A stretch of 64,000 nucleotides of DNA from Corynebacterium liangguodongii. GTDB lineage: Bacteria; Actinomycetota; Actinomycetes; Mycobacteriales; Mycobacteriaceae. A program made the position numbers and the translations under genes. Location: positions 2,293,925-2,357,924 of the forward strand of contig NZ_CP026948.1 of assembly GCF_003070865.1 (NCBI RefSeq). Reading direction: 5' to 3'. This document shows, one piece after another, positions 5,516-9,349 of this stretch (the first letter of the stretch is position 1; every line of letters begins with the position of its first letter). The notes under the pieces are model-generated. The model searched no databases, was not told the origin of the DNA, and saw only the letters and a list, made by a program, of their open reading frames with translations.

Positions 5516-6508
5516 CTACGCGATACCTCCTAGTGCTTGCTGCGGATCAATCGTGGTAATGGAGCGAGTGGCCAGCCATGCGCCGACCATGCCGAGCAGC
5601 CACAACACCAGCGGCGGCCCCCAGACGGTGACGGGGCCGAGCGAAAACGGCGCGACCTGGGCGGCCGCAAGACCGAGCAGGCTCGCGGCCGCCGCACCCG
5701 CGAGCACCCCGGCGCAAAGGATGAGAGCGGCCTGCCCGAGGGCGTCTTTACGCAGGTAGCGCGTCGACGCCCCCAGCGCCCGCAAGATCGACAAATCACG
5801 CGTGCGCTGCAGCGTCCACACCGTGAGGAAGGCGACCGTGACCAACGCCGCAATGGCGTAGAGGAAGCCTTGGATCAGCAGGAGCGAACCCCGCTCGGAC
5901 CCGTAGGCGGGCAGGGCGTTGAAGGACTTCTTCAGGGCAATGCCGGCATCGTCCGCGCGAAGTAGCACGGTGCCCGCCGCGTCTGTGTGCATCGCCGCCT
6001 GCCACACCTCGGTGGGCACCCAGAGGACCGGAGAGTGCGAGTAGTACAGGTCGTCTGCGATCTCGCCCACGCGTATCGACGCCCCGCCGACCTCGACACT
6101 CTCCCCCACCGCGACCCCGAGCCCTTGCGAGGCGACCGCTGTATCGCCCATGGTGTGGCCGGTGGGCAGGGCCGTGCCCCGGGGTAGGCCGAGAACGGCA
6201 GTGGAGATCTCCGTTCCGTCGGCCGCGGTGAGCATCGTCTGGCCGGTACCCAGAGGGATTGCGCCCACGGGGACGTCGCCACGCGCAATGCGCGAGGTGG
6301 CGTAGGACGGATCGTCCCCATCGGCGAACGTGACGGATGCGGGACGAAGCGCCTCGAGCGCGGATGTGTTTTGCTTGCCCAGCCCGGCGGTGAGCCCGGT
6401 GAGCATGACCACGAGGAGCGTGATCAGCGCGACGACGCCGGCGATCAGGCCGAAGCGGCCCCGGGCGCCTCTGATTTCTCTCATTGCTACGAACATGGCT
6501 TCAAGCAT
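5516..6508 (-). CDS. FtsX/HrtB-like ABC exporter permease
   Basis: This 330-residue permease has the MacB/FtsX topology: a cytoplasmic start (MFVAMREIRGARGRFGL), one helix (ALITLLVVMLTGLTAGLG), a large extracellular domain of about 190 residues, then three C-terminal helices. NTSALEALRPASVTFADGDD after the first helix matches what I recall of corynebacterial HrtB. The ATPase gene follows directly, so the two are cotranscribed. ATG codons at 6508 and 6496 are both possible starts; neither has a strong ribosome site. A symmetric element at 6544-6587 lies in the divergent promoter region. Confidence 0.7.
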   Translation of the reverse strand: MLEAMFVAMREIRGARGRFGLIAGVVALITLLVVMLTGLTAGLGKQNTSALEALRPASVTFADGDDPSYATSRIARGDVPVGAIPLGTGQTMLTAADGTEISTAVLGLPRGTALPTGHTMGDTAVASQGLGVAVGESVEVGGASIRVGEIADDLYYSHSPVLWVPTEVWQAAMHTDAAGTVLLRADDAGIALKKSFNALPAYGSERGSLLLIQGFLYAIAALVTVAFLTVWTLQRTRDLSILRALGASTRYLRKDALGQAALILCAGVLAGAAAASLLGLAAAQVAPFSLGPVTVWGPPLVLWLLGMVGAWLATRSITTIDPQQALGGIA

Positions 6509-6543
6509 GGCCCTAAGCAGCAGGTTTCCACATCGGCTAGGCG

Positions 6544-6587
6544 GATGAAACGCACATCAACCGATCGGTGGATCCGCCGGTTTCATC
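6544..6587. promoter_or_regulatory. Nested palindrome in a divergent promoter region
   Basis: GATGAAAC (6544-6551) and GTTTCATC (6580-6587) form a perfect 8-bp inverted repeat. Almost exactly centred inside it is the palindrome ACCGATCGGT (6560-6569). It lies between the start of the HrtB-like permease (minus) and the small membrane protein (plus), where a repressor or response-regulator site would be expected. The binding protein is unknown. It lacks the outer bases of the McbR box. Confidence 0.45.
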
Positions 6588-6603
6588 ATGCGAATATGGT
6601 GAT

Positions 6604-6948
6604 ATGACAGTTGTGAACGTCATCCTCGCGCTGAGTTTTTTCGCCGCAGCCTGGTATTGGTGGTGGACCGGGGTCAGGGCGGAGCGAGGGACCCTGCGGC
6701 CGGGCACCTTTTGTGCCGCCTCGCTCGGCCTGTCGTACTTCGACAAGCAGAAGTGGGTTGAAGGCCATTACGCTGCGTCGGGCTATACCAAGGCGGTGAG
6801 CGTTCCACTATTCGTTGCCGCGATAGCATGCCTCTTTGCCGGTGAGTCCGTATATGGCTGGATTTTCGTGACGTCCCTTTCCCTGGCGGCGGTTGCGCTC
6901 GTGGCCGCGGTGCGAAAGGCCCATGCCGCGGTTCGGCACATGCCGTGA
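6604..6948 (+). CDS. Small membrane protein of unknown function
   Basis: A 114-residue protein with three hydrophobic helices (approximately residues 3-21, 61-80 and 83-102) and a Trp-rich first turn (AAWYWWWTG). The middle part (FDKQKWVEGHYAASGY) is cytosolic or extracellular and polar. I do not recognise a family. The start at 6604 was chosen over an in-frame ATG 36 bp upstream because that one would fall inside the palindrome. It ends 11 bp before repeat copy 1 and may be part of the same insertion as fic. Confidence 0.55.
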   Translation: MTVVNVILALSFFAAAWYWWWTGVRAERGTLRPGTFCAASLGLSYFDKQKWVEGHYAASGYTKAVSVPLFVAAIACLFAGESVYGWIFVTSLSLAAVALVAAVRKAHAAVRHMP

Positions 6949-6959
6949 TGGCCCTCCGC

Positions 6960-7019
6960 CCACGCCGAACGTGTCGATTTTGGCGCGGAAAATCGACACA
7001 TCGGCCGGACGTGTCTATC
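6960..7019. repeat. 60-bp flanking repeat, copy 1 (5' of fic)
   Basis: This repeat is identical to 8124-8183 at 56 of 60 positions. It contains an 11-bp perfect inverted repeat, GTGTCGATTTT (6971-6981) and its complement (6989-6999), around GGCGCGG. A further GGACGTGTC-ATC half-site follows. It ends 8 bp before the fic ATG, so it overlaps the fic promoter. Confidence 0.85.
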
Positions 7020-7027
7020 GTGTGGAC

Positions 7028-8119
7028 ATGAACAACTCCGAGGGATTTGCTCCGGACACTCCCTACAACGATCTACCGCCCCTACCTCCGCCTGTGGACG
7101 TGGAGACTGCGGCGGTGCTCAAGGATGTCATCGAGGCGCGGGCCGCGCTGGCGGCCTTGAACACCGCCTGCGACCTCATCCCGAACCCTGAGATCATCAC
7201 CTCGACGATCCCGCTGCGCGAGGCGCAGGCGTCGACAGAGATCGAGAACATCGTCACCACCAACGACGAGTTGTTCAAGGCGGAGTGGGAGGTCGATCCC
7301 ACCCCCTCGCCGGCAACGAAAGAAGCGCTGAGATACAAGTCGGCCCTCTACACCGGGGTAAGCTCGCTCGACTCGCGGCCGGTATCGGAGAAGACCGCTG
7401 TGCAGATGTGCAGCATCCTATCCGGCCAGTCAGCGCAGATCCGCTCAACCACTGGGACAGTCATCGGCGACCCGCGCTCGAAAGAGCGCATCTACACGCC
7501 GCCCGAGGGACAGCAGGTCATCGAGCGTCACCTCTCCGCGTGGGAGAGGTTCATCTATTCGCCCCACGGCCTCGATCCCCTCGTCCTCATGGCCGTGACG
7601 CACTACCAATTCGAGGCGATCCACCCCTTCTACGACGGCAACGGGCGGACGGGACGCATCCTCAACATCCTGCTGCTCATTCAGCTCGGCGTGCTCCGGC
7701 TACCGGTGCTCTACCTGTCCGGCTATATCGTGGACAACAAGTCGGAGTACTACGCGCTGCTGCGCGGGGTCACGGCGCGGGGGGATTGGGAAGCGTGGGT
7801 CCGCTTCATGGTACGCGGAGTGCAGTCGTCTGCGGAGTCGACCACGCAGCTCATCGATGACCTGCGCCGCCTCCAGGAGGAGGCGAACGAGGCGATCCGC
7901 GCCCTCGGAATCTCGGCGGGGGCCGACCTCGCCCACCTGTTGTTTCTCAAGCCGTACGTGCGCATCGCGGACGTCGTCGACGCGGGATTGGCGCAGCGGC
8001 AGACCGCGTCGGCCTGGCTCAATCAGCTGGCCGGGGCCGGCATCCTGGCGGAGTACAAGGTGGGGCGGAGCAAGGTGTTTGCCAACACCGCGGCGCTCGG
8101 CGTATTGACGCGACGCTGA
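7028..8119 (+). CDS. Fic family protein with C-terminal winged-helix-like segment
   Basis: Fic proteins transfer AMP (or another nucleotide moiety) from a nucleotide to target hydroxyl groups. The 363-residue protein has the full active-site motif HPFYDGNGRTGR with catalytic His199. It also has an N-terminal inhibitory helix of class II type (S69-T-E-I-E73-N74), so it is predicted to be self-inhibited. Residues about 310-363 (DVVDAGLAQRQTASAWLNQLAGAGILAEYKVGRSK) look like a winged helix-turn-helix. The likely start MNNSEGF follows a -10-like TATCGT by 6 nt, suggesting leaderless expression. A 60-bp repeat lies immediately on each side. The target protein is unknown. Confidence 0.9.
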   Translation: MNNSEGFAPDTPYNDLPPLPPPVDVETAAVLKDVIEARAALAALNTACDLIPNPEIITSTIPLREAQASTEIENIVTTNDELFKAEWEVDPTPSPATKEALRYKSALYTGVSSLDSRPVSEKTAVQMCSILSGQSAQIRSTTGTVIGDPRSKERIYTPPEGQQVIERHLSAWERFIYSPHGLDPLVLMAVTHYQFEAIHPFYDGNGRTGRILNILLLIQLGVLRLPVLYLSGYIVDNKSEYYALLRGVTARGDWEAWVRFMVRGVQSSAESTTQLIDDLRRLQEEANEAIRALGISAGADLAHLLFLKPYVRIADVVDAGLAQRQTASAWLNQLAGAGILAEYKVGRSKVFANTAALGVLTRR

Positions 8120-8123
8120 CGCG

Positions 8124-8183
8124 CCACGCCGGACGTGTCGATTTCGGCGCGGAAAATCGACATATCGGCCGGACGTGTCGATC
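8124..8183. repeat. 60-bp flanking repeat, copy 2 (3' of fic)
   Basis: This copy begins 5 bp after the fic stop codon. It differs from copy 1 at four positions and keeps the palindrome (8135-8145 and 8153-8163, one mismatch) and the extra GGACGTGTCGATC half-site. It sits 62 bp upstream of the histidine kinase start, so it could act on that promoter as well. Confidence 0.85.
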
Positions 8184-8245
8184 CACCGTACATGTCCCCG
8201 CCCACACCGGGCGCGGGGCCGGCGGGCGACCTACCCTTGACTCCC

Positions 8246-9349
8246 GTGAGCAACACCACCCGAATCCTGCGGTTCCTCCGCATCAGCCTCCACGTCCTCG
8301 TCGCTGTGCTCCTGGCGGTAGGCATGGTCAACGCCGGAGGCAAGATCGTCGCCCTCCTCCTCGCCGCGTCCTTCGCGCTGCTCTACCTCGCTGGCACCGT
8401 CTACCACAACCGGGGCGGCAGGTACTCGCCCGCGCACGCCATCGCGTGGCTAGTCGGCATCACCGCGCTATGGGTATTCATGACGCTGGCCTCCCCGTCG
8501 TTTGCGTGGCTGGAGTTCCCGCTGGTTATCCTCGCCAGTTACCTCCTTCCCGTGCCCGCCTCGCTCCTCGCAGCGGCGCTCATCCTCTGCTTCACGCTGA
8601 GCATCACCGGCCCCGCGAGCGGCGTCGGCGGTCTCGTCGGGCCTACCATCGGCACCGGCATCGCGGTGCTGATCTTCCACTCCTATACCGCCCTGCGCCG
8701 GGAGGCCGAGCACTATAAGCAGCTCGCGGCCGATTTGGAGGCGGCCCAACTGGAGCTCGCCGCCGCGGAGCGCGCCGCCGGGGTGGCAGCCGAGCGAGCC
8801 CGGCTCTCGCGCGAGGTCCACGACACGATCGCACAGGGGCTCAGCTCCATCGTTTTGCTGGGCAGGGCGCTGGACAAGCAGCTAGATCGGCCGGGGGACG
8901 CGCGCGAGACCCTCGACATCATCCGGCACACGGCGGCCGACAACCTCACGCAGGCCCGCCGCATCGTCGCCGGGGTCAGCGGTGCGCACGAGCCTCTCAC
9001 CCAGCGTATCGACGCCCTCGCCCGCTCCGCGGAGCAGCGCCAACGCGCCCTCGGCACACCCCTCCGAGTCACCGTCAACGCCGCCGATCTCCCGGGCCCG
9101 GCGGCAGACGTCGCCGAGCGCGTCGTGCGCGAGGCCCTCAGCAACATCGTGCGCCACGCCCACGCCACCGAGGCAGTGATCACCGTGGACGTCCTCGGAG
9201 ACCAGGCCACCATCGACGTCTACGACGACGGGGTGGGCATCGGCACGCGCGAAGGCTTCGGCCTCACAGGCCTGCGCGCCCGCGTCGAGGAGGCCGGTGG
9301 CGCACTGACCGTGGAGGGCAACGTGCTCGCCGCGACGATCCCCGTATAA
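8246..9349 (+). CDS. NarL-type sensor histidine kinase (ChrS-like)
   Basis: This is the sensor half of a two-component system with the next gene. The 367-residue protein has five or so hydrophobic helices in residues 1-155, a coiled-coil linker rich in Ala/Glu (about 160-185), a HisKA_3 phosphoacceptor (SREVHDTIAQG, His192), and a HATPase with AERVVREALSNIVRHAHA, DDGVGIG and GFGLTGLRARV. GTG at 8246 was preferred because TACCCT lies 8 nt before it (leaderless). ATG at 8191 is the alternative. Next to an HrtBA-like exporter it may sense haem like ChrS, which is an inference. Confidence 0.82.
   Translation: MSNTTRILRFLRISLHVLVAVLLAVGMVNAGGKIVALLLAASFALLYLAGTVYHNRGGRYSPAHAIAWLVGITALWVFMTLASPSFAWLEFPLVILASYLLPVPASLLAAALILCFTLSITGPASGVGGLVGPTIGTGIAVLIFHSYTALRREAEHYKQLAADLEAAQLELAAAERAAGVAAERARLSREVHDTIAQGLSSIVLLGRALDKQLDRPGDARETLDIIRHTAADNLTQARRIVAGVSGAHEPLTQRIDALARSAEQRQRALGTPLRVTVNAADLPGPAADVAERVVREALSNIVRHAHATEAVITVDVLGDQATIDVYDDGVGIGTREGFGLTGLRARVEEAGGALTVEGNVLAATIPV

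Follow-up and report, generated by a model that had tools for sequence, protein, structure and literature searches.

A half-site lattice flanks a SoFic-type fic gene in Corynebacterium liangguodongii and is its probable operator

The fic locus and its repeats

The window, a 64,000-nucleotide stretch of Corynebacterium liangguodongii DNA (contig NZ_CP026948.1), carries a fic gene with a half-site array on either side (Table 1). The protein matched the Pfam families Fic_N (E = 7.4e-24), Fic (1.1e-14), and SoFic-like_C (4.9e-17), in that order. In Fic enzymes, the catalytic motif is defined as HPFx(D/E)GNGRxxR and the inhibitory motif as (S/T)xxxE(G/N); the corresponding motifs read from the sequence, HPFYDGNGRTGR and STEIEN, both fit the definitions for class II. 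The protein scored 360 bits against the PADLOC SoFic model and 445 bits against the NCBIfam SoFic equivalog NF046030, which is under the 550-bit cut-off of that model, and we therefore treat it as a SoFic-type homologue and not as a certified equivalog. Its nearest solved relatives by sequence were 9vjc and Shewanella SoFic, with PDB entries 9tb0, 9tc4, 9tch, and 9tcl bearing the name SoFic; by fold, Shewanella SoFic was again nearest (44% identity). An AlphaFold model (mean pLDDT 80) placed helices at residues 297–306, 312–317, and 323–335 and strands at residues 340–344 and 347–351, with residues 323–335 as the recognition helix and Gln322, encoded at 7994–7996, as its N-terminal neighbor. 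The original prediction, made from this DNA alone, had described the C-terminus of Fic as resembling a winged helix, and both the SoFic-like_C match and the model agree.

Table 1. Coordinates of features at the fic locus, counted from the first nucleotide of the window
Feature	Position	Strand	Basis or detail
Divergent ABC permease	5516–6508	divergent	left neighbor of the insert
Insert relative to relatives	6575..8226	.	ORF126, both arrays, fic; between ABC permease and HK-RR pair
Small ORF, unknown family	6604..6948	+	126 aa from GTG 6568, 114 aa from ATG 6604
Upstream (U) array	6971..7030	+	sequence; lattice also upstream of SoFic genes generally
U array cores			TGTCGA 6972–6977 (+), TCGACA 6993–6998 (-), TGTCTA 7012–7017 (+), TGGACA 7023–7028 (-)
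Predicted fic promoter	6993..7021	+	-35 TCGACA 6993–6998, 17 bp, -10 TATCGT 7016–7021
fic, SoFic-type class II Fic adenylyltransferase, 363 aa	7028..8119	+	Pfam, PADLOC, PDB sequence and fold
C-terminal winged helix	7919..8110	+	AlphaFold model; recognition helix 7997–8035
Downstream (D) array	8135..8194	+	sequence; U-array lattice kept, no -10
D array cores			TGTCGA 8136–8141 (+), TCGACA 8157–8162 (-), TGTCGA 8176–8181 (+), CGTACA 8187–8192 (-)
Sensor histidine kinase (HK)	8246..9349	+	GTG 8246; HisKA_3, HATPase_c; next gene, outside cassette

The gene is bracketed by a 60-bp direct repeat (6960–7019 and 8124–8183) whose copies match at 56 of 60 bases (93%), and the four differences noted in the original prediction were all recovered. 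That prediction put fic within 8 and 5 bp of the repeats; the start codon does lie 8 bp past copy 1, but the stop codon ends 4 bp before copy 2. Throughout the 2.36-Mb genome the repeat occurs in these two copies only, a third match being the reverse strand of the palindrome in copy 1. This palindrome, TGTCGATTT-N9-AAATCGACA, occupies 6972–6998 and 8136–8162 and has an expectation of 0 in shuffled sequence. The pattern TGTCGATTTN{0,14}AAATCGACA had no genomic match beyond the two repeat copies, and the much looser RTGTCGAN{13,17}TCGACAY gave one extra match, at genome position 394985. An inverted repeat and a third half-site had been predicted in each copy; both are present, and so is a fourth half-site. 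An array built from four half-sites (cores 6972–7028 and 8136–8192) is thus the better description of the repeated unit; the half-sites are of the types TGTCGA (+) and TCGACA (-) and variants of these, with centre-to-centre spacings of 21, 19, and 11 bp in the U and D arrays alike.

When the window was compared by blastn with six loci carrying HK orthologues, the conserved flank stopped at 6574 and resumed at 8227 (best match L198). Searches with tblastn found fic in none of 29 HK-orthologue loci. The ABC permease gene lies at most 455 bp from the HK gene in 28 of these loci and ~1.1 kb away in L202, and only scattered, chance-like matches to the palindrome with three mismatches were seen in the set. 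As the HK-orthologue loci have neither fic nor array, the insert in the window either brought both arrays with it or is where they arose. The small ORF sits within the insert directly before the U array; it had no Pfam or NCBIfam match and no tblastn match in the 29 loci. A near-palindrome of the TCAACCGATCGGTTGA type, ATCAACCGATCGGTGGAT at 6556–6573, is kept between the ABC permease and HK genes in relatives and is perhaps the site of the response regulator.

The upstream array overlaps the predicted fic promoter

A promoter scan of positions 6500–8400 reported TCGACA-17-TATCGT as the sole promoter-like site, and the D array had none. A possible HK -10 element, TACCCT at 8232–8237, was picked out by eye and was not reported by the scan. 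The fic start codon follows the predicted -10 by 6 nt, and the transcript would thus be leaderless. Half-site 2 of the U array is the predicted -35 element, the -10 extends into half-site 3, and half-site 4 reaches the ATG, so that palindromic sequence overlies the predicted -35 and -10 of the gene's own promoter, as with self-repressing Fic-HTH proteins of the CccR type. The layout TCGACA-17-TANNNT-6-ATG recurred in 23 of 36 Corynebacterium SoFic loci. Genus counts refer to these 36; the remainder of the 42 SoFic-bearing Corynebacterium genomes were unfetched, partial, broken, or aberrant.

The lattice recurs upstream of SoFic genes in several phyla

The whole 28-base palindrome had no exact match in named genomes because the spacers differ between species, and half-sites were searched for instead. 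SoFic loci were collected from Corynebacterium, other actinobacteria, proteobacteria, Acidobacteria, Verrucomicrobia, and other groups, as judged from record titles. From this collection, 12 rows were dropped, namely eight duplicates (L036–L039, L121, L125, L184, L187), a pseudogene (L188), two proteins whose HTH is of another kind (L193, L195), and one gene with a shortened start (L429); the resulting set of 145 loci is still partly redundant, since each of the pairs L014/L096 and L064/L424 seems to come from a single genome. In an earlier set of 120 loci, duplicates included, inverted repeats matching at 10 or more of 12 pairs were found in the 190-bp upstream regions of 94 SoFic loci, compared with 90 of 815 control windows drawn from the same loci. 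At least two identical RTGTxyz half-sites preceded 123 of the 144 SoFic genes scored, as against 53/815 control windows and 7/91 other Fic genes, and at least three preceded 88/144, 4/815, and 0/91, respectively. A scan of viral contigs yielded mostly other Fic proteins, and these served as controls.

The spacing of neighboring half-sites was sharply quantised. Convergent half-sites lay 21 bp (93 cases) or 11 bp (34 cases) apart and divergent ones 19–20 bp apart (100 cases), and other distances were few, apart from sums of these values. Exact lattice pairs occurred upstream of 106/145 SoFic genes and in 5/661 control windows. The 39 SoFic loci that have no exact lattice pair count against self-repression through the array. 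So does L425 (KRQTAS), from which the array is absent; a survey of 398 Pseudomonadota genomes added three SoFic loci, of which two (L424, L425) had no array. In E. coli, in Cedecea, and on several rhizobial plasmids, the region leading to the start codon is a succession of alternately long and short palindromes. A distant DNA search detected a SoFic gene in 45 of 5426 E. coli genomes, with 36 of the matches covering at least 80% of the query.

Several loci deserve mention in their own right. Two E. coli loci (L426, L427) have long rows of half-sites before the SoFic gene, with five alternating palindromes in E. coli. On a Salmonella plasmid (L428), SoFic lies among type IV secretion genes and also follows a long row of half-sites, in which there is no exact lattice pair of one type. 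In Corynebacterium genome G270, a Fic paralogue that is not SoFic has a SoFic-type palindrome ~100 bp upstream (L279 3619–4951).

Two other lines were abandoned. The Actinomycetota set gathered with the PADLOC SoFic model, which is broad, was dropped as a replicate, since only 21 of its 56 loci (49 plus 7 viral) aligned to SoFic at E <= 1e-40. A genome-wide SoFic regulon was also set aside: by eye, arrays matching the specific pattern in SoFic-bearing genomes had a SoFic gene or pseudogene no more than 3 kb away, with the one exception in G270. The looser RTGTCGAN{13,17}TCGACAY matched in 98/201 Corynebacterium genomes, versus 16/201 for the reversed control, and its further matches elsewhere look chance-like.

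Half-site bases and the recognition helix

The residue preceding Arg323, the first of the recognition helix, varies among SoFic proteins. In lattice arrays associated with lysine at this place, the half-site bases were CGA in 63 of 64 cases and CGT in the other; with glutamine they were CGA (15), CGC (2), CGT (1), and TTA (1); and with serine (n = 11), AAA (8), TAG (2), and TCG (1). None of six proteins with threonine had an exact lattice pair; in one of them, the Corynebacterium locus L127, TGTTAA half-sites flank the gene on both sides, with no exact neighboring lattice pair upstream. Under a looser array call, bases other than CG were found in 15/19 serine or threonine loci versus 9/106 of the rest. 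The serine or threonine exceptions were L009, L015, L043, and L076 (4/19), which scored CG. L042, L056, and L073 are counter-examples of another kind, in which lysine or glutamine proteins have TGTTTA-rich promoters. In a quick tree built with the winged helix left out, the residue class changed six times and supplied four independent pairs on supported branches; a mean of 2.4 pairs (all loci) or 3.1 pairs (array-bearing loci) changed in the same way and 0.0 in the opposite way, a result that is not significant. These comparisons are suggestive of a tendency for half-site bases and the residue just before the recognition helix to change together.

The downstream array

A search allowing two mismatches found the palindrome upstream of fic in 30 of the 36 Corynebacterium SoFic loci, downstream in 13, and on both sides in 12. 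By exact lattice, 13 of 29 array-bearing Corynebacterium loci had a D array and 16 had none, whereas outside the genus a D array was present in 2/77; a second copy devoid of a promoter is thus found chiefly in Corynebacterium, and the promoter is therefore the general partner of the array. Where both arrays occur, the D array starts 7–41 bp past the fic stop codon in 11 of 12 loci. The third half-site was TGTCGA in 9/12 D arrays and in 0/12 U arrays, where it is mostly TGTTTA or TGTCTA and comes with the -10. In the parts that vary freely, U and D arrays of the same genome agreed at 0.77 and 0.84, compared with 0.42 and 0.58 across genomes (permutation p = 2e-4), and only 3 of 12 genomes had the same nine-base centre of the long palindrome in both arrays. 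The D array is a genuine feature whose half-sites look maintained and whose function is putative.

Occupied and empty sites

Evidence for gain or loss of fic came from a site between putA and AKR genes. Of 19 AKR loci, 12 had no putA within reach and were uninformative. Among the seven informative loci, the order array-fic-array was found in G240 and G242, one array and no fic in G373, G284, G310, and G345, and neither in G335; G242, whose contig ends inside AKR, was counted from a separate analysis, and the G345 array has one changed arm base. The arms agree among the four empty sites, and the central nine bases all differ. The existence of occupied, single-array, and arrayless versions of one site indicates that paired arrays are also a mark of fic having been gained or lost. 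At a FAD-oxidase site, G374 is occupied and G371 has a single array; this comparison is weaker because the match is on the left side only.

The specific palindrome was present in 32/42 SoFic-bearing and 13/159 SoFic-lacking Corynebacterium genomes (p = 3e-18), with the reversed pattern in 2/201; the SoFic-bearing class was cut at E ~2e-77, with the next matches at 3e-71, and includes the partial G337 and G349 and the odd paralogue G352. With these counts, the possibility that the unit occurs at many unrelated loci, which the original prediction had named as the finding that would speak against it, was mostly not borne out. By eye, ten of the 13 SoFic-lacking genomes have half-sites or near half-sites at all four lattice places; the other three (G223, G311, G346) have the palindrome with no other half-sites and may be chance matches. 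A SoFic-like_C domain scored above the cut-off in none of the seven SoFic-lacking palindrome genomes tested, five of which (G373, G332, G310, G371, G230) belong to the ten with four lattice places. Recent loss of fic is the simplest account of these arrays, and a pure SoFic operator would be insufficient to explain them unless the loss was recent.

Some of these regions have features of their own. In G258 (L275 4965–5171), a vestige of SoFic, its final 42 residues, lies behind an array and looks like a deletion scar. In G230, where no SoFic was found in the genome, a type I-E CRISPR-Cas locus sits between 140-bp direct repeats (94% identical; L182 4033–4172 and 15630–15769), both of which contain an array; the locus has 29 CRISPR repeats, and Cas3, Cse1, CT1975, CRISPR_assoc, and Cas1 families were recognised among the ten proteins scanned. 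In G252, again with no SoFic found in the genome, a SoFic-type palindrome has a Schlafen/AlbA_2 gene on one side and a gene for type I restriction specificity on the other (L181 3266–6362). The idea that arrays are a general device of defence cassettes rested on G230 and was rejected, as the other orphan arrays scanned were, with the exception of G252, mostly beside ordinary genes such as those for proline dehydrogenase, transporters, and an aminotransferase.

A model for the arrays and its alternatives

Our preferred reading, to which we give a probability of roughly 0.8, is that SoFic represses itself through its array. It starts from what can be seen directly, namely the arrays, the lattice, the overlap with the predicted promoter, and the occupied and empty sites. 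SoFic dimers would bind RTGTCGA half-sites through the C-terminal winged helix on a rigid lattice of inverted pairs, alternately 21 and 11 bp apart, with 19–20 bp between pairs. Since the U array extends over the predicted -35 and -10 elements as well as the start codon, bound SoFic would shut off the leaderless fic promoter, and a self-toxic anti-phage AMPylator would thereby be under negative autoregulation. The D array would add a binding platform, most likely as an auxiliary operator for cooperative or looped repression. Being a direct repeat of the U array 1.16 kb away, it would also make fic deletable by recombination that leaves one array behind. The original prediction had offered operators for Fic itself as one of two readings, and comparison across genomes supports this choice well through the lattice shared among phyla, the overlap with the predicted promoter, and the tendency of half-sites to change with the recognition helix.

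The other reading offered there was that the repeats are recombination ends. In its strong form, with the arrays as ends of a mobile cassette in which fic moves by (site-specific) recombination and transcriptional control is secondary, we consider it improbable, although parts of it stand. Single-array empty sites in four species against array-fic-array in two at putA-AKR fit such movement, as do the neighbor genes of array-bearing SoFic, which differ from species to species, the repeats around the CRISPR-Cas locus of G230 in a genome that has no SoFic, and the closer likeness of U and D within one genome. Known recombinases, however, generally use crossover sites whose centre is identical in both ends, and the U and D centres seldom coincide. 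The five proteins that were scanned, encoded by fic, ORF126, HK, RR, and PfkB genes, included no recombinase, relatives have no array at the place where the window's insert lies, D arrays are rare outside Corynebacterium, and D, with its own third half-site, is no plain copy of U. We place a further proposal on the same doubtful footing, that the array is a DNA antitoxin: lattice-bound SoFic would be held inactive, with the contacts needed for toxicity engaged by DNA and its own gene silenced. If this were true, arrays on both sides would enlarge the trap for SoFic, and phage takeover or breakdown of host DNA would free active dimers and derepress fic, so that infection would be sensed as loss of the array.

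Two readings give the D array or the palindromes a different partner. It had been predicted that copy 2 links the HK promoter to Fic, and D might then be an operator or promoter element of HK that ties SoFic to the two-component system. The HK start does come ~50–110 bp after the D array, and through the insertion the conserved TCAACCGATCGGTTGA-type motif known from relatives has stayed beside ABC, at 6556–6573, and away from HK. We nevertheless think the link quite unlikely: the 29 HK-orthologue loci have no fic and only chance-like palindrome matches, no promoter-like site overlaps the D array, and elsewhere the second copy follows the fic stop codon whatever gene comes next, including convergent genes in L117, L119, L124, and L135. 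Least probable of all, and hardly credible in our judgment, is that the palindromes act in RNA as a hairpin, a terminator, or an RNA antitoxin. Inverted repeats of 10–11 bp could fold as RNA, but the predicted promoter lies within the U array and puts the long palindrome upstream of the predicted transcript, which argues for a DNA operator; moreover, the half-site sequence itself, and not pairing alone, is kept across phyla, and positions 6500–8400 hold no terminator-like site.

Comparison with known systems

SoFic has been reported as a self-toxic, single-gene anti-phage toxin, and the mechanisms that regulate its toxicity were described in 2025 as remaining elusive (PMC12249575). A 2023 report stated that DNA binding by SoFic had not been demonstrated (PMC10628234). 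Among the matches listed from the open-licence literature, none described an operator for SoFic or a SoFic gene between repeats. The Fic protein of the window resembles SoFic (SO_4266 of Shewanella oneidensis, EcSofic; NF046030; PADLOC SoFic) in domain order and in its active-site and inhibitory motifs, and it has the same fold as the Shewanella protein at 44% identity; it differs in scoring under the NF046030 cut-off (445 of 550 bits). As for a separate antitoxin gene next to fic, as in FicTA or Sofic-AS1, the 3' gap (8120–8245) holds no ORF of AS1 size in the fic orientation, the sole contained ORF of at least 20 aa being 21 aa long; on the 5' side lies the 114–126-aa ORF, which matched no known domain.

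The nearest published case that we found is CccR of Yersinia pseudotuberculosis, described as a Fic domain with a C-terminal HTH that represses its own promoter through a palindrome and as 29% identical to SO_4266 over 45% coverage (PMC9755527). The operator is different. For CccR, one pair AGATAATCAT-N26-ATGATAATCT with 36 bp between centres is given, whereas the window has a TGTCGA lattice spaced 21/19/11; the passages on CccR covered here mention no second operator copy, and the window has two arrays. CbFic2 of Coxiella burnetii is likewise reported to be a Fic protein with a DNA-binding C-terminal winged helix whose activity is altered by DNA, and its authors raise the possibility that the binding is non-specific (PMC10628234).

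With the half-site and lattice common to several phyla, E. coli included, the C-terminal domain of SoFic becomes a candidate repressor for which both the target and the residue governing specificity can be predicted. The flanking copies may, in addition, exemplify an operator of a defence gene that doubles as the repeat across which this gene can be lost. Toxin-antitoxin operators with several phased sites hold toxin expression down by lying as an array over the promoter. The arrays described here would resemble them in this respect, and would differ in that, for SoFic, repressor and toxin would be one polypeptide.
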